Source: a virus. From it: a stretch of 40,633 nucleotides of DNA. Under the pieces are notes generated by a model. The model was not told the origin of the DNA. It saw only the letters and a list, made by a program, of their open reading frames with translations, and searched no databases. This document shows, piece by piece, positions 2,648 through 39,832 of the stretch. Numbering within the stretch: the stretch's first letter is position 1; each line of letters opens with the position of its first letter. A program made the position numbers and the translations under genes. The stretch lies in IMG/VR virus record IMGVR_UViG_3300006903_000008, positions 1 through 40,633 of that record. The stretch is one strand, 5' to 3'.

Positions 2648-2696
2648 CCGCCATTCCACACACGTCAGCCATGCAGCGCCCCCAGAGGAGGAACCA

Positions 2697-3653
2697 GTGG
2701 CCACCGCCACGCAGGCCAAAGGTACGAGCGCCCCACGCAACACCCGCAAGGTCGGCACGCGCCGGCTGTACGAGTGGCGCGCCCCCGACTCGACGGTAGG
2801 ACAGGAGCCCGAGCGGTACTGGTCGGTCACCACGCTGATCAAGTCGGGCGTGCCTTCGCCCGCGCTCACCTACTGGGGCATGCGCGAGGTCGCGAGCTAC
2901 GCGGCGGTCAACCACCGCGTCCTCGCCGCGATGCTGGAGGCGGTCCGCGTCCGCAAGACGCCAGGCGGCCTCGCCATCGTCACGGATCCCGACGCCGTCA
3001 CCGGTGCGATCGACTGGCTCAAGGAGTCGCCCTGGCGCGAGCGCAACCGGAAGGCCGACATCGGGACCGCGGTCCACGCCGCCGTCGAGGCCCACATCCT
3101 CGGCGTGCCGTGGCCGGAGCCCGAGGAGGGCACCGAGGGCCACCTGGCCCAGTTCGCGCGCTTCATCGAGGCGTTCCACCCCGTCTTCGAGCTCGCCGAG
3201 GCGTCGGTCTACAGCCGGACCGCGAAGTACGCCGGCACCCTCGACTTCATCGCCACGATCCCCGGTCGCGGCCGGGCGCTGATCGACACGAAGACGGCCG
3301 GCTCGGGCGTGTACCCCGAGGCCGCCCTGCAGCTGGCCGCCTACCGGTATGCGGAGTTCATCGGGCTGCCCGACGGCACCGAGGCGCCGATGCCCGCGGT
3401 CGACGGCTGCGCGGTCCTCTGGCTGCCCGGTGGTGACGATCCCGACGGCTGGGCGCTGATCCCCGTCGTCGCCGACGAGCAGGTCTACCGCTCGTTCCGA
3501 CACGTGATCGAGGTCGCGCGCTGGGCGGAGGAGCTGTCCAAGAGCGTGATCGGCCAGCCGCTGCCGATCCCATCCGATCCCGCGACCGCCGAGCTGTTCG
3601 CCCCAGCCGAGCTCGACGCGCCCGTCGCGACACCCGAAGGAGCAGTCGCATGA
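2697..3653 (+). CDS. Cas4/RecB-like PD-(D/E)XK exonuclease
   Basis: The 318-residue product carries the ordered motifs of the Cas4/RecB nuclease branch: GTAVHAAVEA with His at about 127, GTLDFIAT with Asp at about 183, LIDTKTA with Asp 197 and Lys 199, and QLAAY with Gln 212 and Tyr 216. Related phage enzymes degrade DNA ends and work with an annealing protein during replication or recombination. I see no four-Cys iron-sulfur cluster of the true Cas4 type. The GTG start follows a strong GAGGAGG site six bases upstream. It heads the replication operon and its stop overlaps the ATG of the Gp3-like gene, so the two products probably act together. Confidence 0.82.
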   Translation: MATATQAKGTSAPRNTRKVGTRRLYEWRAPDSTVGQEPERYWSVTTLIKSGVPSPALTYWGMREVASYAAVNHRVLAAMLEAVRVRKTPGGLAIVTDPDAVTGAIDWLKESPWRERNRKADIGTAVHAAVEAHILGVPWPEPEEGTEGHLAQFARFIEAFHPVFELAEASVYSRTAKYAGTLDFIATIPGRGRALIDTKTAGSGVYPEAALQLAAYRYAEFIGLPDGTEAPMPAVDGCAVLWLPGGDDPDGWALIPVVADEQVYRSFRHVIEVARWAEELSKSVIGQPLPIPSDPATAELFAPAELDAPVATPEGAVA

Positions 3654-4861
3654 CCGCCGAGACATTGCCCGCCGTCCGCCAGCCAGGTCCGATCGCCGAC
3701 GGCACCGCCCTCGGGATCCAGCGCCGCTTGCTCGAGATCGGCAGGATCAGGCTGGGCGAGAAGGGCACGAAGGGCGAGCCGAAGGCGATCTCGAAGTTCC
3801 GCCTGACGTCGCGATCGCGCGTCGTGCTCGAGGCGGCCGCTCGCATCTACGGCGGCACGGTCCGGCCATGGGCCGGTGCTCCCGACGAGGGCAGCTTCGA
3901 GCTGTACACGACCAGCGACACGCTCGACGTCATGGTCCCGCCGACGATCGCGGCGTACAGCCAGTTCTTCGAGGAGTGGTCCGGCGGGACCTGCAACCTG
4001 CGCTGCGACGGGCGCATCGAGCAGATCTCGGGCAAGGCGTGCGATCACGGCGAGCACGAGGGCATGAGCGTCACGACGCGCGTGTCGGTCATCCTGCCGA
4101 AGCTGCCCGGCCTGGGCGTGTTCCGTCTCGAGACGAAGGGATGGAACGCGGCTTCGACCCTGCCGTCCTCGCTCGAGCTCATCGGCGCCGTCGGGCGCTG
4201 GGTGCCGGCGGTCCTCCGCCTCGAGCACCGCTCGTCCCGCACGCGCGACGAGAAGGGCAAGGTCCTGACCCGGCGCTTCGTCGTGCCGGTCATCGACCTC
4301 GTCGCGGCGACCTTCGGCGACATGCTCGCGATGGGCCAGGCGACCGACGAGTACCCCGAGCTCGGCGGCGGGCCGGGATCACTCGCCCTGCCTCCCGGCC
4401 CGTCCCAGCCGCGCGGCGGGACGCGCGTCGCGCGACCGGACATGGCGCCCGAGCCACCGCTCGAGGACGAGGCACCGCCCCTCGCGACGTCCGCGGCCGC
4501 CACGGGCGGCTTCCCGGTCGCCGAGGATGACGTCTTCGCCGCCGAGCCGGCTTCTGAGCCCGAGGCGAAGGCGACCGAGCCCGTCGACGACCTGGTCGAG
4601 CGGATCCGCGAGGCGGCCCTGGGGTCAGGCCTCGAGGGCGACCCGTCGCCGGAGCAGCGCGAGGCCCTGGCGCACCTGTTCAAGGGCTTCCACATGAGCG
4701 TGACGCTGGCCGGGCTCAAGACCGTCTTCCCCGATGGCGTCAAGGGCCAGCAGGCGAAGCTCTCGGCCGCCCAGGCGGCGGCGATCCTCACCGTCGCCGG
4801 CAAGCTCGACCGCGATGCGCTCCAGGCGACCTGGACGGAGCTGTCGGGAACGCCGCTGTGA
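3650..4861 (+). CDS. phiC31 Gp3-like family protein (annotated recombination directionality factor family)
   Basis: The first 225 residues match my memory of the Gp3-like family: RRLLEIGRIRLGE near the N-terminus, then FRLTSRSRVVLEAAARIYGG, WSGG with Cys residues, a VSVILPKLPGLGVFRLET segment and a closing RRFVVPVIDL. In phage phiC31 the founding member switches the direction of a serine integrase. This phage has a tyrosine integrase, and the gene is coupled to a nuclease, so a general role in DNA recombination or annealing is more likely. A Pro/Ala/Glu-rich linker (about 230-305) leads to a helical C-terminal region. The family call should be tested with a profile search. Confidence 0.7.
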   Translation: MTAETLPAVRQPGPIADGTALGIQRRLLEIGRIRLGEKGTKGEPKAISKFRLTSRSRVVLEAAARIYGGTVRPWAGAPDEGSFELYTTSDTLDVMVPPTIAAYSQFFEEWSGGTCNLRCDGRIEQISGKACDHGEHEGMSVTTRVSVILPKLPGLGVFRLETKGWNAASTLPSSLELIGAVGRWVPAVLRLEHRSSRTRDEKGKVLTRRFVVPVIDLVAATFGDMLAMGQATDEYPELGGGPGSLALPPGPSQPRGGTRVARPDMAPEPPLEDEAPPLATSAAATGGFPVAEDDVFAAEPASEPEAKATEPVDDLVERIREAALGSGLEGDPSPEQREALAHLFKGFHMSVTLAGLKTVFPDGVKGQQAKLSAAQAAAILTVAGKLDRDALQATWTELSGTPL

Positions 4862-5112
4862 CGCTCCGAGACGCCGCGCGTCGCCTGCAGGCAATCGCCT
4901 CGGACATCCGCGATGTCGCCGGGCGCCTGGATGGCCCCGAGCCCGTCCGCTGGGCCGCGGCGCGGGACCTGCGCTCGACCGCGTTCAACCTCGAGGCGCA
5001 CGCGGTCATCGCCGAGCGCAAGGGCATCGAGGCGGGCGAGCCGGATCCAGATGACCTCAGCTGGATCGCCACCGCGGCCCCGGGCGAGATCACCGAGGTC
5101 ATGGGTCGGTGA
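4858..5112 (+). CDS. Hypothetical helical protein (84 aa)
   Basis: The GTG start overlaps the previous TGA. The sequence is mostly amphipathic helix (ARRLQAIASDIRDVAGRL, then RDLRSTAFNLEAHAVIAER) with an acidic C-terminus. No family is recognised. It is part of the run of overlapping early genes. Confidence 0.6.
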   Translation: MTLRDAARRLQAIASDIRDVAGRLDGPEPVRWAAARDLRSTAFNLEAHAVIAERKGIEAGEPDPDDLSWIATAAPGEITEVMGR

Positions 5113-8753: not shown

Positions 8754-9299
8754 ATGACCCGGGAGCCGATGGCGTTCGACGCCGAGGGGACCTTGATCGA
8801 GGCGCCCGCCGGCATGACGCGCCTGGTCCTGGCGATCGACCCCGGCCCAACGCGATCGGCCTACCTGGTCCTCGACGTCGAGACGCGACGGCCGGTGAGA
8901 TTCGACATCGTCGACAACGACGAGCTGTTGAGGTTCTGCCGGCACTCGCTGTACCCGCTCGACATCAGCGACGTCGTCATCGAGAAGGTCGAGTCGTTCG
9001 GAATGTCGGTCGGTGCAGAGGTCTTCGAGACCGTCTTCTGGTCCGGGCGCTTCGCCGAGGCCGCCGACGTGGTCGCGACCGTCAGCCGGCTCGGCCGGAT
9101 CCGGATCAAGAACCACCTGTGCCACAGCTCGAAGGCGAAGGACTCGAACATCCGCCAGGCGTTGATCGACCGCTACGGCGGACCCGACGCGATCGGGCGG
9201 AAGGCTGAGCCCGGGCCCCTGTACGGGATCTCGAAGGACGTGTGGTCAGCACTCGCGATCGCCGTGACCCACGTCGACCAGGAGGGCGCCGCGGCATGA
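8754..9299 (+). CDS. RuvC-like Holliday junction resolvase
   Basis: The 181-residue product has the RNase H fold signature: LVLAIDPGPTRSAYLVLD with the first catalytic Asp at about 29, DVVIEKVESFG with Glu 77, and SKDVWSALAIAVTH with Asp at about 162 near the C-terminus. The family cuts branched DNA made during replication or recombination so that genomes can be packaged. An alternative ATG at 8769 is preceded by GGGAG. The next gene overlaps the stop. Confidence 0.8.
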   Translation: MTREPMAFDAEGTLIEAPAGMTRLVLAIDPGPTRSAYLVLDVETRRPVRFDIVDNDELLRFCRHSLYPLDISDVVIEKVESFGMSVGAEVFETVFWSGRFAEAADVVATVSRLGRIRIKNHLCHSSKAKDSNIRQALIDRYGGPDAIGRKAEPGPLYGISKDVWSALAIAVTHVDQEGAAA

Positions 9300-9493
9300 C
9301 TCGAGACGACCAGATCCCGCCCGACGACCCCGGTGCCGAGGTCATCGAGAAGATGAAGCGCCTCGGTCTCGTCCGCGTTCGCGAGGAGGACCTCGACAAG
9401 CCGTGGGGCAAACAGCACCTCGAGCTCACAGAGGCCGGCCGCGCCCACAAGACCCAGCTGATGCGCGAGCATCCCGAGCTGTTCCCCTCGTGA
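9296..9493 (+). CDS. Small winged-helix-like protein (65 aa)
   Basis: The sequence EVIEKMKRLGLVRV, then KQHLELTEAGRAHKTQLMRE, resembles a short winged-helix (helix, then wing of LELTEAG). It overlaps both the RuvC-like and HerA-like genes by four bases. It may be an accessory subunit of one of them. No family is recognised. Confidence 0.6.
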   Translation: MTRDDQIPPDDPGAEVIEKMKRLGLVRVREEDLDKPWGKQHLELTEAGRAHKTQLMREHPELFPS

Positions 9494-11241
9494 TCCGGAT
9501 CGCCAAGGGCCTCGAGCTGCCCGACGACGTCGCGACGCAGTCGATCGCGATCCTCGCCCGCCGTGGCGCCGGCAAGACCTACACCGCCTCGGTCATCGTC
9601 GAGGAGGTCATCCGCGCCGGGATCCCGGTCGTCGTGCTCGATCCGACCGGCGCGTGGTGGGGCCTGCGCACGTCGGCCGACGGCCAGAAGCCCGGGCTGC
9701 CGGTCTACGTGTTCGGCGGCGACCATGCCGATGTCCCGCTCGAATCGGCTGCGGGCAAGGTGATCGCCGACGTCGTCATCGACCACCCGGCTGCCTACGT
9801 CGTCGACCTCTCGGCCTTCGAGTCGAAGGGTCAGGAGATCCGGTTTGCCGCCGACTTCCTCGAGCGGCTGTACCGGGCGAAGAAGCGCGAGACAGGCCCG
9901 CTCCTGGTCGTCGTCGACGAGGCCGACCTCTTCGCGCCGCAGCGCCCGGGCCCGGAGCAGACGCGGACCCTCGGCGCCCTCGAATCGATCGTCCGCCGCG
10001 GCCGGATCAAGGGCCTCGGCGACCTGCTGATCACGCAGCGCGCCGCGGTCCTGAACAAGAACGTCCTGACCCAGACCGAGGTCCTCGTCGTCATGCAGAC
10101 GACCGGGCCCCAGGACCGCGCAGCGATCGACGAGTGGATCGCCGGCAACGGCAGCCGCGAGCAGCGCGATGATGTCCTCGGGTCGCTGGCCGGCCTCGAG
10201 CGCGGCGAGGCGTGGGTGTGGAGCCCGCAGTTCCTCCGCATGCTGCGCCGCGTCCGGATCCGCCAGCGCACGACGTTCGACTCGAGCCGGACGCCCGAGG
10301 TCGGCGAGGTCGCGATCACGCCGCAAGCATTCGCCCAGGTCGACCTCGACAAGCTCGGCGCCCGGATCCGCGCGAGCGTTGAGCAGGCGAAGGCAAACGA
10401 CCCCGCCGAGCTCCGGAAGCAGATCCTCGCCCTGAAGCGCGAGCTCGATCAGCGCCCGACCGAGCAGGTTGTCCAGACCGTCGAGAAGATCGTCGAGGTC
10501 CCGGTCCTCAACGGTCAGGTCGATGAGCTGCGCGAGCGAGCCGAGCGACTTCAGGACGTCGGCGCCTCGGTGGTCGCCGTCGGCACAGACATTCTCGCCG
10601 CCATTGGGCGAGTCGCTGCGGCTCCCCGGCCCGCCGCTCAAGGCCAGCAGGATCGGGGGTCGCGCCCCGCGGGTCGGCTGGTAGAGCGGCGGGCCGAGGC
10701 GCCGCCGCCATCGGCTGCCGGAGGTCTCCCGAGCGAGGCCTCGTTAGGCGAGGCGCGACAGCTGAAGGCGGGCGCTCGCCGGATGCTGTCCGCCCTCGCC
10801 CAGCTCCACCCGACGCCGCTCACGCGCTCGCAGATCGCGACGCTCGCCGACGTCAGCCCGGCCGGCGGGACCTTCTCGGACTACCTGTCGGCGATCCGGA
10901 GCAACGGCCTGATCCTCGAAGAGAACGGCACGATCGCGCTCACGTCCGCCGGCCAGCAGCTCGTCGCCGGCGAGCTCGGCAGCGGCGCGCCGACGCCGCA
11001 GCAGCTGCTCGACCTGTGGGGCCGGAAGCTCAAGGCGGGCGCCAGGCGGATGCTGGCGGTGCTGCACAACGTCTACCCCGACGGCGTCACCCGGGCTGAG
11101 CTCGCTGAGCGTGCCGAAGTCTCGGCAGCCGGCGGCACGTTCAGCGACTACCTGTCATCGCTCCGTCGTAACGGCCTGATCGACGAGTCGGGCGGGCAGA
11201 TCCGCGCCGGCGCGGCGCTGTTCCTGGGCGAGCGTGGCTGA
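9490..11241 (+). CDS. HerA/FtsK-like ATPase with two C-terminal winged helices
   Basis: The 583-residue product has a Walker A motif (ARRGAGKTY, Lys 29), a Walker B motif (LLVVVDEAD, Asp 143 and Glu 144) and the LDPTGAWWGLR and LITQRAAVLNKNVL segments of HerA-like hexameric ATPases. Residues about 300-380 include a coiled coil. The C-terminus holds two copies of a winged-helix unit beginning KAGARRML (about 426 and 515), each with AGGTFSDYLS and NGLI. HerA enzymes move along DNA and usually pair with a NurA nuclease; none is seen here. The neighbours are a RuvC-like resolvase and, farther away, a Cas4-like nuclease. It is the only candidate DNA translocase besides the terminase. Confidence 0.82.
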   Translation: MIRIAKGLELPDDVATQSIAILARRGAGKTYTASVIVEEVIRAGIPVVVLDPTGAWWGLRTSADGQKPGLPVYVFGGDHADVPLESAAGKVIADVVIDHPAAYVVDLSAFESKGQEIRFAADFLERLYRAKKRETGPLLVVVDEADLFAPQRPGPEQTRTLGALESIVRRGRIKGLGDLLITQRAAVLNKNVLTQTEVLVVMQTTGPQDRAAIDEWIAGNGSREQRDDVLGSLAGLERGEAWVWSPQFLRMLRRVRIRQRTTFDSSRTPEVGEVAITPQAFAQVDLDKLGARIRASVEQAKANDPAELRKQILALKRELDQRPTEQVVQTVEKIVEVPVLNGQVDELRERAERLQDVGASVVAVGTDILAAIGRVAAAPRPAAQGQQDRGSRPAGRLVERRAEAPPPSAAGGLPSEASLGEARQLKAGARRMLSALAQLHPTPLTRSQIATLADVSPAGGTFSDYLSAIRSNGLILEENGTIALTSAGQQLVAGELGSGAPTPQQLLDLWGRKLKAGARRMLAVLHNVYPDGVTRAELAERAEVSAAGGTFSDYLSSLRRNGLIDESGGQIRAGAALFLGERG

Positions 11242-11614
11242 CCGCGAGGCCCTGCGCCTCGATGAGGTCGCGCAGCTGCTCGGCGTGCACGTCGAGACGG
11301 CGCGAAAGTGGGCGATCGCCGGCGAGCTGCCCGCCCGCAAGGTCGGCGGGATCTGGCTCGTTGGAGTCACGGCGCTGCGACAATGGCTGCATGGCCGGGA
11401 GGCGGAGGATGCCGGGCGACGGGTCGGTGTACCAGCGGAAGGACCGTCTCTGGGTCGCCCAGATCAGCCAGGGCCCGCGGGGCAACCGGACCCTGACCCG
11501 GCGATACGCCCACTCGAAGGCCGAGGCCCGCGCCCTCCTCGACGAGCTTCGAATCGCCGGCGGGCGGGTCGATCGGCGGACGACCGTTGGCGCCTACCTG
11601 CGCGCCTGGCTTGA
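11234..11614 (+). CDS. xis: Excisionase (MerR-type winged helix)
   Basis: The first 55-60 residues form a typical excisionase domain: LRLDEVAQLLGVHVETARKW, IAGELPARKVGGIWLV, then ALRQWLHG. Xis proteins bend attP/attR DNA and favour excision. The GTG start overlaps the HerA-like gene. The frame has no stop before the integrase ATG at 11391 and continues 224 bases into the integrase. The extra 70 residues are Pro/Arg-rich and look like out-of-frame translation. Either the overlap is real or the domain's true end is set in another way. Confidence 0.75.
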   Translation: MADREALRLDEVAQLLGVHVETARKWAIAGELPARKVGGIWLVGVTALRQWLHGREAEDAGRRVGVPAEGPSLGRPDQPGPAGQPDPDPAIRPLEGRGPRPPRRASNRRRAGRSADDRWRLPARLA

Positions 11615-12506
11615 CGGGCCGGGGCGGACCGTGCTGAAGGCGTCGACCTGGGAGACCTACGAGCTGACCCTGCGCCGGCAGCTGCTGCCTGCGCTCGGCT
11701 CGGTCCCGCTGGCGTCGCTCAGCCCCGAGCACGTCGAGCGCCTCGTCGCCGACCTTGGCGCGACGCTGACGCCGAAGGGCATCCGGAACGTTCTCTCGGT
11801 CCTCGGCCGGATCCTCGCGATCGCCGAGCGGCGCGGCCAGATCGCCCGCAATCCGGTCCGTTTCGTCGAGCCGCCGCGGCCGGCGTTCCGCGAGGAGCGG
11901 GCGGCGCTCACCGCGGCTGACGCCCGGCGGATCCGCGAGGCCGTCACCGGCGACAGGCTCGAGGCGCTGTACCTGGTCACCCTCGCGGCCGGACTCCGCC
12001 AGGCCGAGGTCCTCGGGCTGCGCTGGGTCGACGTCGATCTCGTCGCCGAGCGGATCCGGATCGCGGTGGTCCTCGATCGTGTCGCCGGCCAGTACGTCCT
12101 CGTCGAGCCGAAGACGCGCCGCTCGCGCCGCACGGTGTCGCTGCCGAAGTTCGCGATCGATGCGCTGCGCGACCATCGAGCCCGCCAGCTCGAGGAACGG
12201 GTCGCCGCCGGCGCGCCGACCGAGGACGGCCTCGTGTTCGTCACCGAGGCGGGCCGGCCGATCAGCGCGGGCTGGCTCAGCCACCGCTGGCCGAAGATCG
12301 CCGTGCGAGCGGGACTCGCCGGCGTCACGTTCCACGACCTGCGCCACGGCCAGGCATCGCTGCTGGTCGCCGCCGGCGTCCACCCGCGGGTCGTCCAGGA
12401 GCGCCTCGGCCACGCGACGGTCGCGATGAGCATGGACGTCTACAGCCACGTCGCCGGTGCGTCCGATCGCGACGCTGCGGACCGCCTGCAGGAGGCGATC
12501 GGGTGA
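11391..12506 (+). CDS. int: Tyrosine recombinase (integrase)
   Basis: The 371-residue product has an N-terminal arm-binding part (GDGSVYQRKDRLWVAQISQG), a SAM-like core-binding domain (TVGAYLRAWLDG, STWETYELTLRRQLLPALG) and the catalytic domain. The catalytic residues are visible: Arg in LAAGLRQAEVLGLRW, the beta-hairpin Lys in VEPKTRRSRR, HDLRHG (His-x-x-Arg), LGHATVAMSMDVYSH with the second His and the Tyr nucleophile. It joins attP to the host tRNA gene. The ATG at 11391 was chosen because the family pattern MPGDGSVYQR begins just after it. The attP lies 75 bases downstream of the stop. Confidence 0.93.
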   Translation: MAGRRRMPGDGSVYQRKDRLWVAQISQGPRGNRTLTRRYAHSKAEARALLDELRIAGGRVDRRTTVGAYLRAWLDGPGRTVLKASTWETYELTLRRQLLPALGSVPLASLSPEHVERLVADLGATLTPKGIRNVLSVLGRILAIAERRGQIARNPVRFVEPPRPAFREERAALTAADARRIREAVTGDRLEALYLVTLAAGLRQAEVLGLRWVDVDLVAERIRIAVVLDRVAGQYVLVEPKTRRSRRTVSLPKFAIDALRDHRARQLEERVAAGAPTEDGLVFVTEAGRPISAGWLSHRWPKIAVRAGLAGVTFHDLRHGQASLLVAAGVHPRVVQERLGHATVAMSMDVYSHVAGASDRDAADRLQEAIG

Positions 12507-13449: not shown

Positions 13450-13745
13450 GTCCGCTGATCCTGGTCACGATCGCGGTGATCCTCGTCGCGACCCCGCTGT
13501 CGATCCTCGCGTCGATCTTCTGCTGGCAGCTGTACCGCGAGGATCGGACGAATGGGTTGGCGTTGGTCCTCGCCGCCGTCGTGACGGCGACCACGAGCGC
13601 CGGCGTCCTGCTGGCTATCCCGACGCTCTTCTTCGTGACCGGGCATACGCCGCCTTTCGCCGGCCAGCTGGTGCTCGTGGCGATCGACATCCTGCTGCCG
13701 GCGCCGGTCGTGATCGCGGCGTACCTGCGATGGCTGCGTAGATGA
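13446..13745 (+). CDS. Three-span membrane protein, holin candidate (99 aa)
   Basis: Three hydrophobic helices are visible: about 4-28 (LILVTIAVILVATPLSILAS), 36-62 (LALVLAAVVTATTSAGVLLA) and 71-95 (LVLVAIDILLPAPVVIAAYL), with a basic end (RWLRR). Size, topology and the location just before two wall-active enzymes suit a class I holin. The ATG overlaps the previous stop. A second holin candidate lies at 15700. Confidence 0.55.
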   Translation: MSPLILVTIAVILVATPLSILASIFCWQLYREDRTNGLALVLAAVVTATTSAGVLLAIPTLFFVTGHTPPFAGQLVLVAIDILLPAPVVIAAYLRWLRR

Positions 13746-14635
13746 CCCGCCACCGCCTCGAGGTCGTGACCGCGTTCTTCGCCGGCGTCCTGCTCACGCT
13801 CGCCGTGGGGGGTCCGGTCCAGGCGGGCGGCCACAACTGCCGGCCGGCGTGGAAGTGCAACCCACCGACCGCCCGGGTTTCACTGCCCGCCCCGACCGCA
13901 ACCTCGCTTGTACCGACGGTCGCGCCGACGTCGCCGCCCGTCCCGACGCCGCCGCCGACCGCCTCGGCCTACAGCCTCGACGAGGAGTGCTCGGGCCCGG
14001 GGCTCAATCCGGCCTGGTCGGCGCTGTACGGCCCGGGCGACCCCGGCGATCGCCTCGACACCGACACCATGGGCGATCTGCGCCAGGTCTCGGTCGCCGG
14101 CGGGATCTGCACGCTCACCGTCGAACGCAAACAGACACCATCGGGCCGGCCGTTCGCCGGCGCCGCCATGGCGCCCTACGGCACCTTCGGCCAGCGGTTC
14201 GGCACCTACGAGGCGCGGATCCGGTACGACGAGGCGAAGGGCACCTGGCCGTCGCTGTTCCTGCTCCCGGTCGGGCAGAAGGGCCCGTATCCCGAGATCG
14301 ACGTCTTCGAGGCATACGGCGACCCGGCGTGTCTTGGCCCGGGCGCGCTCGTCTCCGCGGTCCACTACGCCGGCGAGATGACATCGGACTACCGCGTCGT
14401 GCCCGTCTCGAGCTCGTCGGGCTGGCACGTCCAGCGGCTCAGCTGGACGGCGGCCGCGGTCACCTTCTCGATCGACGGCGCCGTGACGTTCACGACCGCG
14501 GCGCATGTCCCCCAGGTCGCGATGTACCCGATCGTCGTCGCCGGCGTCGGCGCGAACAACCCGGCCTGCCGCGCCGACGCAACCACCCCATCGCCGCTGG
14601 TGCTGCAGCTCGACTATCTGAGGGTTTCGCCATGA
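13742..14635 (+). CDS. Secreted GH16-family glycoside hydrolase (beta-glucanase)
   Basis: The 297-residue product has a signal peptide (residues 1-28, ending PVQAGG), a Thr/Pro-rich linker (about 40-75) and a GH16 jelly-roll. The catalytic pattern E-x-D-x-x-E is seen in PEIDVFEAYG (Glu 185, Asp 187, Glu 190). The segments FGTYEARIRY and GTWPSLFLLP are also typical of the family. GH16 enzymes cut beta-1,3 or mixed-linked glucans. It overlaps the gene before it and the peptidase after it, so it is made with the lysis proteins and exported by the host's Sec system. It may break a glucan layer or biofilm around the host. The linker style recalls secreted proteins of Chloroflexota and actinobacteria. 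Confidence 0.82.
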   Translation: MTRHRLEVVTAFFAGVLLTLAVGGPVQAGGHNCRPAWKCNPPTARVSLPAPTATSLVPTVAPTSPPVPTPPPTASAYSLDEECSGPGLNPAWSALYGPGDPGDRLDTDTMGDLRQVSVAGGICTLTVERKQTPSGRPFAGAAMAPYGTFGQRFGTYEARIRYDEAKGTWPSLFLLPVGQKGPYPEIDVFEAYGDPACLGPGALVSAVHYAGEMTSDYRVVPVSSSSGWHVQRLSWTAAAVTFSIDGAVTFTTAAHVPQVAMYPIVVAGVGANNPACRADATTPSPLVLQLDYLRVSP

Positions 14636-23674: not shown

Positions 23675-24345
23675 TCGTCCTGGTGCCGTCCCGTGGTCGG
23701 CCGGCGCGCGCCGCCACGATGGTCGACAGCGTCCGCGCCACCGCCGTCGGCGCCGTCGAGATCCTCGTCCTGGTGGATCCGGACGACCCGGCGCTGCCGG
23801 GCTACCAGGCGCACGAGGGCCTGCCGCTCTTCGAGCTGCCGGAGCCGATGGGCTACACCGCGGCGCTCAACCATGTGGCGCGCCTTGTCTGGGACTGGCA
23901 CGACGCGCTGGGTGCCTTCGGCGACGACGTCGTCTTCCGGACCCTCGGCTGGGACGATCACGTGCGCCACGCGCTGCGCACGCCCGGGCTGGCGTACGGC
24001 GACGACCTGATCCACGGCCGGAACCACCCGTCAGCGGTCTTCATGTCGGGCGCGATCGCCAAGGCGCTCGGCTGGCTCGCGCTGCCGGCGACGACGCACC
24101 AGTGGGCCGATGACGGCTGGAAGCGCCTCGGCCAGGCGACCGGGACGCTCCGGTTCCTCGAGGGCGTCGTCTTCGAGCACGAGCATCCGGGTGTCGGCAA
24201 GGCCGAATGGGACGACACCTACCGCGCCGTCTTCGCCGACGAGCGGGCGAAGGCCGACTACGAGGGCTTCACCTCCTGGGTCGAGACCGGCGGGCTGGAC
24301 CGTGACGCCGCGCTCGTCCGCCAGGTCGTCGAGGCGGCGGCGTGA
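23671..24345 (+). CDS. GT-A glycosyltransferase-like protein (224 aa)
   Basis: The product begins MIVLVPSRGRPARAATMVDS, a nucleotide-sugar-binding strand typical of GT-A folds, followed by VEILVLVDPDDP, EPMGYTAALNHVARL and FGDDVVFRTLGWDDHV. The Asp-Asp near residue 85 could bind the metal-sugar complex. I recall similar proteins in actinophages. The GTG overlaps the stop of the cytidylyltransferase, and the next glycosyltransferase overlaps its own stop. The acceptor is unknown; the fibre encoded just downstream is the nearest candidate. Confidence 0.65.
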   Translation: MIVLVPSRGRPARAATMVDSVRATAVGAVEILVLVDPDDPALPGYQAHEGLPLFELPEPMGYTAALNHVARLVWDWHDALGAFGDDVVFRTLGWDDHVRHALRTPGLAYGDDLIHGRNHPSAVFMSGAIAKALGWLALPATTHQWADDGWKRLGQATGTLRFLEGVVFEHEHPGVGKAEWDDTYRAVFADERAKADYEGFTSWVETGGLDRDAALVRQVVEAAA

Positions 24346-25928
24346 GGACCGTCTTCCTGGTGCCGCGCCGGCCAGACAGCGGGCTGCGCGATCGCCTCTG
24401 GGAGTGGTGCCGCCGGCGATGGCAGGAACAGATGCCCGACGTGCCGATCTACGAGGGCGAGCACCTCGAGGGGCCGTTCAACCGCTCGGCCGCGATCAAC
24501 CGGGCTGCCGGGCTCGCCGACGTCGACGGGCACTGGGATGTCGCGGTCATCATCGACGCCGACGTCTTCCACCCGATCCCGCACGTCCGTGCGGCGATCG
24601 AGAGTGCGGCTGCGGGCAAGGTGACCTGGGCGCACCGGCGCTGGCGCAACGTCGCCGAGCGCCACCTGAGGCGTCTGCTCGCGGATCCCGACACCTTCGG
24701 CCCGGTGCCGGCCGAGGCGCACGACATGGACCTGATCGTCGACGTGACGAACCCGATCAGCTGGTCCTGCTGCGTGGCCGTGCCGCGGGCGACCTTCGAC
24801 GACATGGGCGGGTTCGACGAGCGGTTCCGCGGTTGGGGATTCGAGGACGGAGCGTGGGCAGCGCTCGTCCGGGCGATGTACCCGTGGAGCCGCATCGACG
24901 GCGACATGTACCACCTCGACCACCCGCGCTCCGACGAGCGGATCATCCTCGGCGAGCCGCGCTCGACCGCCAGCGCCGACTACGTCCGCAACGCCCTCCT
25001 CGGCCGGCGCTACATGGTCGCTGCCATCCGGGACCACGCCGCGGGCGACCAGATCGGCGAGGAGCGGCTGTCGCCGGAGATGGTCGCGATCCACGTCCGG
25101 AACCTGACCGCCGACGACGCGAAGTTCCTGACGATGGCCGAGTCGCGACACATGCCCGAGGCCGCATGGCGCACCTGGTGGCCGACGCTCGAGGAGCTGC
25201 GCGACGGGGCCCGGGCGTACCGCGAGGAGCGGTCCCAGCCGAAGGTGACCGTCGTCGTGACGACCGGGGGCGACGAGTCGACCTGGCCGGAGCGGTCGGC
25301 GTACCTCCGGCAATCGCTCGCGTCGCTCAACGAGCGGGTCAGGGGACCGATCGCTCAGCGCGTCGTGTACTCGGACTGGGCCGGCCACCGCGACGAACTC
25401 GTGGCGATCGCCACCGAGGCCGGGTTCTACGTCGCCGGCGAAGGCCACCACGGCTACACCGGCGCCCGCCGACGGCTGTGGACCTACCTGGCGAAGCGGG
25501 CGGTCGGCGAGTTCATCTTCGCGACCGAGGACGACTTCACCTACGACCGCGACGTCGACCTTGCGCCGCTGATGGCCACCCTCGAGGCGGAGCCGACGCT
25601 GCGGCAGATCGCGCTGCTGCGGGGCCCGTACTACCCGCGCGAGCTCGAGGCCGGCGGGGTCCTCGCGACGCTTAAGACACCCCACGAGCTCGTCAACCAC
25701 CGGCCGCACCCGTTCGTCGTGCATCGCGATCATTTCACGGCCAACCCGTCGCTCTTCCGGCGCTCGTTGACCGAGACGCCGTGGCCGTCGGGGATGAGCT
25801 CCGAGCGCCTGTTCGGTGATGCGGTGCTCCGCGATCCGGATGCGCGATTCGCCTACTGGGGCAGCGGCGAAGCGTGGGTGTCACACATAGGCGCCGTCCG
25901 GGCAGACCTCCCCGGCGCTCCGCGCTGA
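24342..25928 (+). CDS. Two-domain glycosyltransferase (tandem GT-A)
   Basis: The 528-residue product holds two GT-A domains. The first (1-270) has GPFNRSAAINRAAG, AVIIDADVFHP with a DxD at 72-74, and GGFDERFRGWGFEDGAWA, as in polymerising or GalNAc-type transferases. The second (about 305-520) has KVTVVVTTGGDES, YLRQSLASLNERVRGP, GARRRLWTYLAKRAVGEFIF and ATEDDFTYDRDVDL. Two active sites suggest addition of two sugars or a repeating unit. The gene ends five bases before the collagen-like fibre start. Mycobacteriophages are known to glycosylate their virions with phage-coded enzymes, which fits this context. Confidence 0.78.
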   Translation: MRTVFLVPRRPDSGLRDRLWEWCRRRWQEQMPDVPIYEGEHLEGPFNRSAAINRAAGLADVDGHWDVAVIIDADVFHPIPHVRAAIESAAAGKVTWAHRRWRNVAERHLRRLLADPDTFGPVPAEAHDMDLIVDVTNPISWSCCVAVPRATFDDMGGFDERFRGWGFEDGAWAALVRAMYPWSRIDGDMYHLDHPRSDERIILGEPRSTASADYVRNALLGRRYMVAAIRDHAAGDQIGEERLSPEMVAIHVRNLTADDAKFLTMAESRHMPEAAWRTWWPTLEELRDGARAYREERSQPKVTVVVTTGGDESTWPERSAYLRQSLASLNERVRGPIAQRVVYSDWAGHRDELVAIATEAGFYVAGEGHHGYTGARRRLWTYLAKRAVGEFIFATEDDFTYDRDVDLAPLMATLEAEPTLRQIALLRGPYYPRELEAGGVLATLKTPHELVNHRPHPFVVHRDHFTANPSLFRRSLTETPWPSGMSSERLFGDAVLRDPDARFAYWGSGEAWVSHIGAVRADLPGAPR

Positions 25929-34649: not shown

Positions 34650-38737
<4,088 letters not shown>

Positions 38738-38741
<4 letters not shown>

Positions 38742-39832
38742 CCGTCCACCTGCTGGGCCTCGCCCACAGCGAGACCACCGACGAGTTCGCCCACTGCGCG
38801 TACACGCAGCGGACGCGCGACTTCGCGACGCTCCTCGCCAGGGCGGGCGTGCCCGTGGTGCTGTACGGCGGCGAGCGCGACGCCAGCGAGGCCCACCACG
38901 TCCCGCTCGTCACCCGCGAGGAGCAGCGGGCGTTCTGGCCCGACTACGTGCCCGGGCGCGACGTCTTCAACGACTTCCACCCGATGAGCATCGGCCAGGC
39001 CGTCTTCAACACGCGGGCGGCGGCGGCGATCCGCGAGCGCGCCGAGCCGCACGACGTGGTCGCGTTCACGATGGGCACCGCCCAGCAGCCCGCGTGGGGG
39101 TTGCTCGAGCGCGACGACCTGCTGCCGGTCGAGACAGGGATCGGCTACGCGGGCGTGTGGGCGCCGTATCGCGTGTTCGAAAGCTGGGCGTGGCGGAGCT
39201 ACCTCGCCGGCCGGGGGCCGTCCGACCAGGCGCGGCTGTTCGACGCCGTGATCCCCCGGGCGTACGACGCGGCGGACTTCCCGGCGGGCGACGGCCAGGG
39301 CGGCTACTTCGCGTTCGTGGGTCGGTTGATCCAGCGCAAGGGTCCGTCGATCGCCGCCGACGCCTGTCGACGCCTCGGGGCGCGGCTCGTTGTGGCGGGC
39401 CAGGGCGTCGCGAGTGTCGAGCCGGGGAAGATCACCTGCGACGACGGGACGACCCTCACCGGGGACGTGGAGTACGCCGGCCTCGTCGGGCCGGCGGAGC
39501 GCGCCGAGCTCATGGGCGGTGCAATGGCCGTGTTCGCGCCGACGCTGTACCTCGAGCCGTTCGGCGGCGTGTCGGTCGAGGCGCAGCTGTGCGGCACGCC
39601 GGCGATCGTCGCGGCGTGGGGCGGGCTCGTCGAGAACGTCACCGGCGCGACCGGCTTCGCCTGCGCGACGCTGGCCGAGTTCGCGGACGCGGCGGCGCGG
39701 GCGCCGGAGCTCGACCGCGCGACCGTCCGGGAGCACGCACTCGCGACGTGGACTCTCGAGGCGCTGACGACGCCGTGGCTCGACCACCTCGCCCGGCTCG
39801 ACACGCTGTGGACCGACGGCTGGTATGCGTAG
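38738..39832 (+). CDS. GT4-type glycosyltransferase
   Basis: The 364-residue product has the GT-B/GT4 pattern: [55 protein letters not shown] and [20 protein letters not shown], with the E-x(7)-E donor-binding motif (EPFGGVSVE), then [17 protein letters not shown]. The donor is probably a nucleotide sugar. It starts on a GTG overlapping the stop of the second collagen-like fibre, which suggests that the two are used together. It could add sugar to Thr residues of that fibre. Confidence 0.85.

Follow-up and report, generated by a model that had tools for sequence, protein, structure and literature searches.

A Gp3-like protein coupled to a RecB-family exonuclease in a phage with a tyrosine integrase: a probable recombination partner not tied to serine integrases

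At the level of function, we propose that the Gp3-like protein encoded in this phage is probably an OB-fold protein that binds and probably anneals single-stranded DNA (ssDNA), as the partner of the exonuclease encoded just upstream within a recombination and replication module, and that the serine-integrase role of its family is secondary. We infer the ssDNA binding, the annealing, the contact with the exonuclease and the second rank of the integrase role from the gene order, the modelled fold and the distribution of the family described below.

The DNA analysed, here called the window, is the whole of IMG/VR record IMGVR_UViG_3300006903_000008 (positions 1 to 40,633; 40,633 nt), possibly a fragment. 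The following features concern the gene pair and its surroundings:

2682..2698, + strand: ribosome-binding site of the GAGGAGG type, just 5' of the exonuclease GTG (read directly from the sequence)
2697..3653, + strand: RecB/lambda-exo-like PD-(D/E)XK exonuclease, phrog_298, 318 aa (ORF, PHROG match, motifs)
3650..4861, + strand: Gp3-like protein, PF18897, phrog_16191, 403 aa (ORF, Pfam and PHROG matches)
4858..5112, + strand: 84-aa ORF of the same operon, with a GTGA overlap with the end of the Gp3-like gene (ORF, sequence)
8754..9299, + strand: RuvC-like Holliday junction resolvase, further along within this early region (phrog_1770, E 1e-15)
11262..12506, + strand: tyrosine integrase, the only integrase found in the record (PF00589, E 1.8e-23; phrog_1)

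The exonuclease gene starts with GTG and the Gp3-like gene with ATG. Stop and start share four nucleotides (ATGA), a GAAGGAG ribosome site lies ahead of the second start, and the 3' end of the Gp3-like gene is in turn overlapped by the gene that follows (GTGA). With these overlaps and a good ribosome-binding site, translation is likely coupled. The Gp3-like gene therefore sits directly behind a resecting-type exonuclease, as genes of RecT, Erf and Rad52 annealing proteins do. The first-pass annotation had described this overlap, to the exact coordinates, in a phage with a tyrosine but no serine integrase; this description held, since PF00589 was found at 11262-12506 and the serine recombinase domain PF00239 was found nowhere in the 40,633-base, possibly partial record.

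Other genes of the record were also of note. Between the resolvase and the integrase, 9403-11241 encodes a 612-aa ATPase with HerA (PF01935) and terminase large subunit PHROG matches and a C-terminus with weak winged-helix matches. A glycosyl hydrolase family 16 domain is encoded downstream of the integrase (13742-14635), and the late region carries two glycosyltransferase genes (24342-25928 and 38558-39832).

The exonuclease matched phage exonuclease phrog_298 (E 1.1e-35) with intact PD-(D/E)XK motifs: GTAVH (aa 123), YAGTLD (178), LIDTK (195) and QLAAY. It had been called a Cas4-like nuclease, which stands for its RecB-like PD-(D/E)XK core and fails for the cysteines: its 318 aa include a single cysteine, too few for the four-cysteine Fe-S cluster that marks a true Cas4, which is ruled out. 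'Cas4' is a naming habit for the phrog_298-type exonuclease family, and the label is loose.

The first-pass assignment of 3650-4861 to the Gp3 family proved firm. Residues 30-216 matched PF18897 (E 1.8e-33, profile 1-189 of 191) at 116.5 bits against a gathering cut-off of 23.6 bits, and phrog_16191 was matched at E 5e-51. PF18897 was the sole match in the Pfam scan: the annealing-protein profiles searched for (PF03837, RecT; PF04404; PF04098) gave none, and neither did PF10991 or PF00436. Thus, a sequence kinship of the Gp3 core with RecT or Erf was rejected as far as the Pfam scan reaches. Within the protein, four parts were distinguished:

3734..4339, + strand: Gp3 core, about aa 29-230, a beta-rich predicted fold with pLDDT about 90 (structure prediction, fold comparison)
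3992..4057, + strand: putative zinc-binding loop, C115-x3-C119-D-G ... C131-x-H133 (from sequence)
4346..4585, + strand: acidic, low-confidence linker, about aa 233-312, with 15 D/E vs 4 K/R (predicted structure, sequence)
4583..4846, + strand: helical C-terminal domain, about aa 312-399 (predicted structure)

Zinc binding by the loop is possible judging from its residues, and its cysteine pattern is kept in the window-type clade and missing from part of the phiC31-type clade.

For the fold, AlphaFold2 gave a pLDDT of 89.8 and a pTM of 0.84 on the core alone, and a pLDDT of 76 on the whole protein. The best match was the solved phiC31 gp3 structure (9teh_I; Z 17.2 over 191-193 residues, Foldseek E about 3e-13 to 4e-13), and the model of the Gp3-like protein thus has the fold of phiC31 gp3. 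Our literature search, with subscription papers mostly outside it, found no paper on the 9teh structures. OB folds made up most of the next matches –above all SSB from bacteria and mitochondria, RPA70 and BRCA2, with MCM as well– at Z of 4.7 or less, and values below 5 outside the family can mirror common topology alone. A few OB-fold toxin subunits (AB5 toxin) appeared in the same list, and OB folds bind ligands other than ssDNA too. A Rad52-like fold was not among the matches listed, where absence excludes nothing. An OB fold of the modelled core is likely. Comparison with RecT, Erf and RPA folds had been suggested as a check, and the outcome points weakly to OB-fold ssDNA-binding proteins (SSB, RPA) rather than to RecT or Erf.

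The association with a nuclease extends across the family. A RecB/Cas4-family nuclease was found upstream in 65 of 66 viral Gp3 loci, and the remaining locus ends at a contig edge. With the exonuclease profile, 62 of the 66 had a phrog_298-type exonuclease upstream in the same orientation, within 40 nt in 27 and within 1 kb in 55. Three loci (L010, L011, L085) have in its place a Cas4-domain exonuclease (phrog_1990) with C-terminal cysteines; these nucleases, from one Gp3 subgroup, have cysteines of the CxYC type (L010:7795-8739, L011:6883-7818, L085:7798-8811). In phiC31 the pair is gp1 and gp3, gp1 belonging to the exonuclease family of the window (phrog_298, 1e-55), and the named phiC31-type phages broadly share the order exonuclease ... 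Gp3 ... resolvase, primase, polymerase. Exonuclease and Gp3 are not always adjacent, with several genes between them in phiC31-type phages, and operon linkage alone does not prove that the two proteins interact. Phage early operons are often kept as blocks, and together with those intervening genes this could speak for a neighbourhood due to shared early-gene inheritance only, with no functional link. We find that scarcely credible, because, despite deep divergence, 65 of 66 loci keep an upstream nuclease, which in some has even been replaced by a different nuclease with a Cas4 domain.

Related modules without a Gp3 were informative on what else may follow this exonuclease. Among the 266 phage records retrieved with the window exonuclease, Gordonia phage Frokostdame and Rhodococcus phage Sleepyhead encode a homologous exonuclease followed by a RecT-like protein (phrog_4171, 2e-45 and 1e-35), and PF18897 is absent from both genomes. 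In Faecalibacterium phage Brigit, a more distant exonuclease also precedes a RecT, and in Clavibacter phage CN1A, which lacks a Gp3, the module holds the exonuclease together with an SSB. Neither PF03837 (RecT) nor PF04404 (ERF) was found in the 51 Gp3-bearing genomes, PF03837 being insensitive for actinophage RecT-like proteins (it missed Sleepyhead). The SSB domain PF00436 was missing from 45 of these 51 genomes and present in six. The suggestion that Gp3 pairs with the exonuclease as annealing proteins do thus gains from the family-wide linkage and from RecT-like proteins in the same slot.

Beyond a linker, the C-terminal domains vary between Gp3 homologues, and some of these domains resemble RecT tails. 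Two tails (L084 and L050) matched the C-terminal part of the RecT-like phrog_4171 (about 295-362 of 392) at 2.4e-5 and 5e-3. We searched three RecT proteins and about 10,500 ORFs with a profile of eleven such Gp3 tails. The source Gp3 proteins and their near copies came first, and Frokostdame gp59 (5e-11) and Sleepyhead gp52 (1.4e-7) ranked right behind; thus, some Gp3 and some RecT cores bear the same tail behind the same exonuclease. The C-terminal domain of the window protein occupies the same position and had no profile match, including none to the RecT-tail profile, and for this reason we claim tail homology for the relatives only. The C-terminal domain of Red beta binds lambda Exo and SSB (PMC8303780), which by analogy suggests partner contact as the role of RecT-type Gp3 tails. 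Two further tails (L013, L014) matched GemA of phage Mu over its N-terminal part (PF06252, about 1e-5). Tails of the GemA and RecT types could serve in protein contact, and with the operon linkage and the deletion phenotype of phiC31 gp3 they would also fit an accessory of replication or of the nuclease –a mediator or loader– acting alongside the exonuclease without binding ssDNA itself. We regard such an accessory as improbable, given the slot exchange with RecT-like proteins and fold matches that drift to ssDNA-binding proteins.

Several Gp3 copies end in an acidic-P(x)F tip like that of bacterial SSB: Eden (DDVPF), Armstrong (EETPF), L062 (DTVPF) and Dubu (PDPEF), as well as Albright, BabyYoda and Celaena (DEPAF). 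The strict form of the tip occurs as background in 15 of 10,526 ORFs, and the tipped copies represent perhaps three lineages. In our locus numbering, L094, L095, L096, L104 and L109 are the tipped Gp3s of Eden, Albright, BabyYoda, Celaena and Armstrong. Such tips, the dominance of SSBs among OB-type fold matches, the lack of PF00436 in most carriers (45/51) and the SSB in the CN1A module would all suit a protein that is the phage's own SSB at the replication fork, without annealing, placed behind the exonuclease by incidental early-operon order. However, the slot is filled in Frokostdame and Sleepyhead by RecT-like annealing proteins, which have the tail module in common with some Gp3s, and not by SSBs, and six carriers hold both an SSB and a Gp3; a plain SSB is thus an unlikely alternative, though one to be taken seriously, to the annealing partner that we favour.

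The Gp3 family takes its name from the phiC31 factor that switches a serine integrase so that the phage can excise from the host chromosome, and its linkage to serine integrases was surveyed across carriers. A profile scan of viral contigs with the family alignment gave 80 Gp3-like loci. Among 50 of the longer Gp3-bearing contigs, 22 had a tyrosine integrase only, 13 a serine integrase only, two had both and 13 neither, which speaks against exclusive linkage. Since contigs may be fragments, complete isolates weigh more. Tyrosine integrases only were found in the isolates mu1/6, VWB, SF3 and MinS1, and in the window; serine only in phiC31, Dubu, Honk, VResidence, Samy and Halsey. Eleven further phiC31-type phages had a serine recombinase in four cases and neither integrase type in seven. 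The complete isolates with a phiC31-type Gp3 and no integrase are Eden, Albright, BabyYoda, SunnyD, Buldak, phiSASD1 and Celaena, which include four with SSB-like tips (Eden, Albright, BabyYoda, Celaena), and six of the seven carry a Gp3 annotated 'recombination directionality factor'. Cluster EB phages are independently reported to have no integrase and no repressor and to be apparently lytic (PMC7302621).

On an unrooted tree of 67 Gp3 cores, counting only starred (well-supported) branches, the minimum was at least eight changes for 'tyrosine only' and at least seven for 'serine only'. Integrase labels were still clustered, since related phages share integrases. Gp3 proteins that are 70-75% identical accompany different integrase types, as in L035 (serine) and L026 (tyrosine) at 75% and L068 (serine) and L069 (tyrosine) at 73%. 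In two records (G002 and G027, those of L009 and L043), recombinases of both the tyrosine and the serine type accompany the Gp3-like gene. The Gp3 family is not tied to serine integrases, which occur in only some of its carriers.

The residues G27 and G119, required for integrase binding in phiC31 gp3, are retained in the window protein. This could be read as a sign that Gp3-like proteins are directionality factors of a general kind, able to switch the tyrosine integrase of a phage such as this as well. We consider that very improbable: both glycines also persist in integrase-free phages and therefore look structural, an excisionase is annotated separately in mu1/6, and the Gp3-like gene sits among replication and recombination genes, away from int. 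With C117 missing in several serine-integrase phages, the integrase-binding residues do not discriminate and were ruled out as a signature of directionality factors.

Taken together, the integrase independence, the family-wide nuclease linkage and the exchange of the slot with RecT-like proteins support the general function as a recombination partner put forward in the first-pass annotation. The weak OB-type fold matches, the lack of PF00436 in 45 of 51 carriers, the SSB-like tips and the plaque defect of phiC31 without gp3 also speak for ssDNA handling, and the SSB in the other six carriers speaks against it. The nuclease is nearly always upstream, whatever the integrase or with none, so the older job of the family was probably ssDNA handling in replication and recombination. 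With the tree unrooted, the idea that the phiC31 role is a special case is plausible. In the mechanism we propose, the exonuclease (2697-3653) would resect DNA ends, and the translationally coupled Gp3-like protein (3650-4861) would bind the exposed single strand through its OB-type core and protect or anneal it, while its linker and C-terminal domain would contact partners. In the window phage it would have no connection with any serine integrase. In phiC31-type phages, Gp3 would additionally have been recruited to bind the serine integrase, leading to excision at the start of lytic replication. More tentatively, and at somewhat less than even chances, the family may be an unrecognised class of phage single-strand annealing proteins, built from an OB-type core, perhaps with a zinc loop, and C-terminal modules that can be exchanged. 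Its partners would be exonucleases of the RecB/Cas4 family, and the phiC31 directionality factor would be a recruited member.

Genome engineering uses the phiC31 integrase and gp3 as standard tools, and the reason that phage proteins so unrelated act as directionality factors is a background question in the field. Should gp3 prove to be, in origin, a recombination partner that binds ssDNA, a shared protein would couple excision to the start of lytic replication. Many 'recombination directionality factor' annotations in integrase-free phages would then be misnomers, and the family would offer candidate recombineering pairs for actinobacteria. A literature search that covered few subscription papers returned no description of the exonuclease module, of the tyrosine-integrase or integrase-free carriers, or of the exchange with RecT.

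Among known systems, phiC31 gp3 and phiBT1 gp3 are directionality factors that share the Pfam family and the modelled fold (9teh_I, Z 17.2) with the window protein, and phiC31 has a phrog_298 exonuclease upstream. They differ in length (244 aa, against 403 aa with a linker and a helical C-terminal domain), with about 20% core identity, and the window phage has a tyrosine integrase; the serine integrase that a serine-integrase directionality factor should have in the same phage is absent from the record, possibly a fragment. A dual role of phiC31 gp3 is already suspected: phiC31 without gp3 formed zero plaques, and the authors inferred a replication role besides excision (PMC3836970; repeated in PMC5311408). 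Bxb1 gp47 is likewise a serine-integrase directionality factor, which the phage also requires to replicate its DNA (Savinov 2012, as reported in PMC3836970), although it is evolutionarily unrelated (PMC5311408) and represents an independent recruitment.

The Streptomyces phages mu1/6 (gp13-gp14), VWB (gp8-gp9) and SF3 (gp48-gp49) carry the same pair of exonuclease and long Gp3-like protein, adjacent or nearly so, with a tyrosine integrase and a RuvC-like resolvase downstream; their Gp3s are about 30-35% identical to that of the window and are annotated 'hypothetical protein'. SynExo modules (lambda Exo-Red beta, RecE-RecT; Frokostdame gp57-gp59) also place an exonuclease ahead of an ssDNA-handling partner with a C-terminal module, and the exonuclease family of the window recurs in Frokostdame and Sleepyhead, although the Gp3 core has no sequence match to RecT. 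By analogy, the closest counterpart in organisation is the DUF2800 nuclease - Gp2.5 (DUF2815) - polA module (PMC8093625), in which a PD-(D/E)XK nuclease goes with an annealing protein that binds ssDNA and has an OB fold, and which has no separate ssb; the Gp3-like protein did not match PF10991 in the Pfam scan, and the likeness between the two modules is one of organisation.
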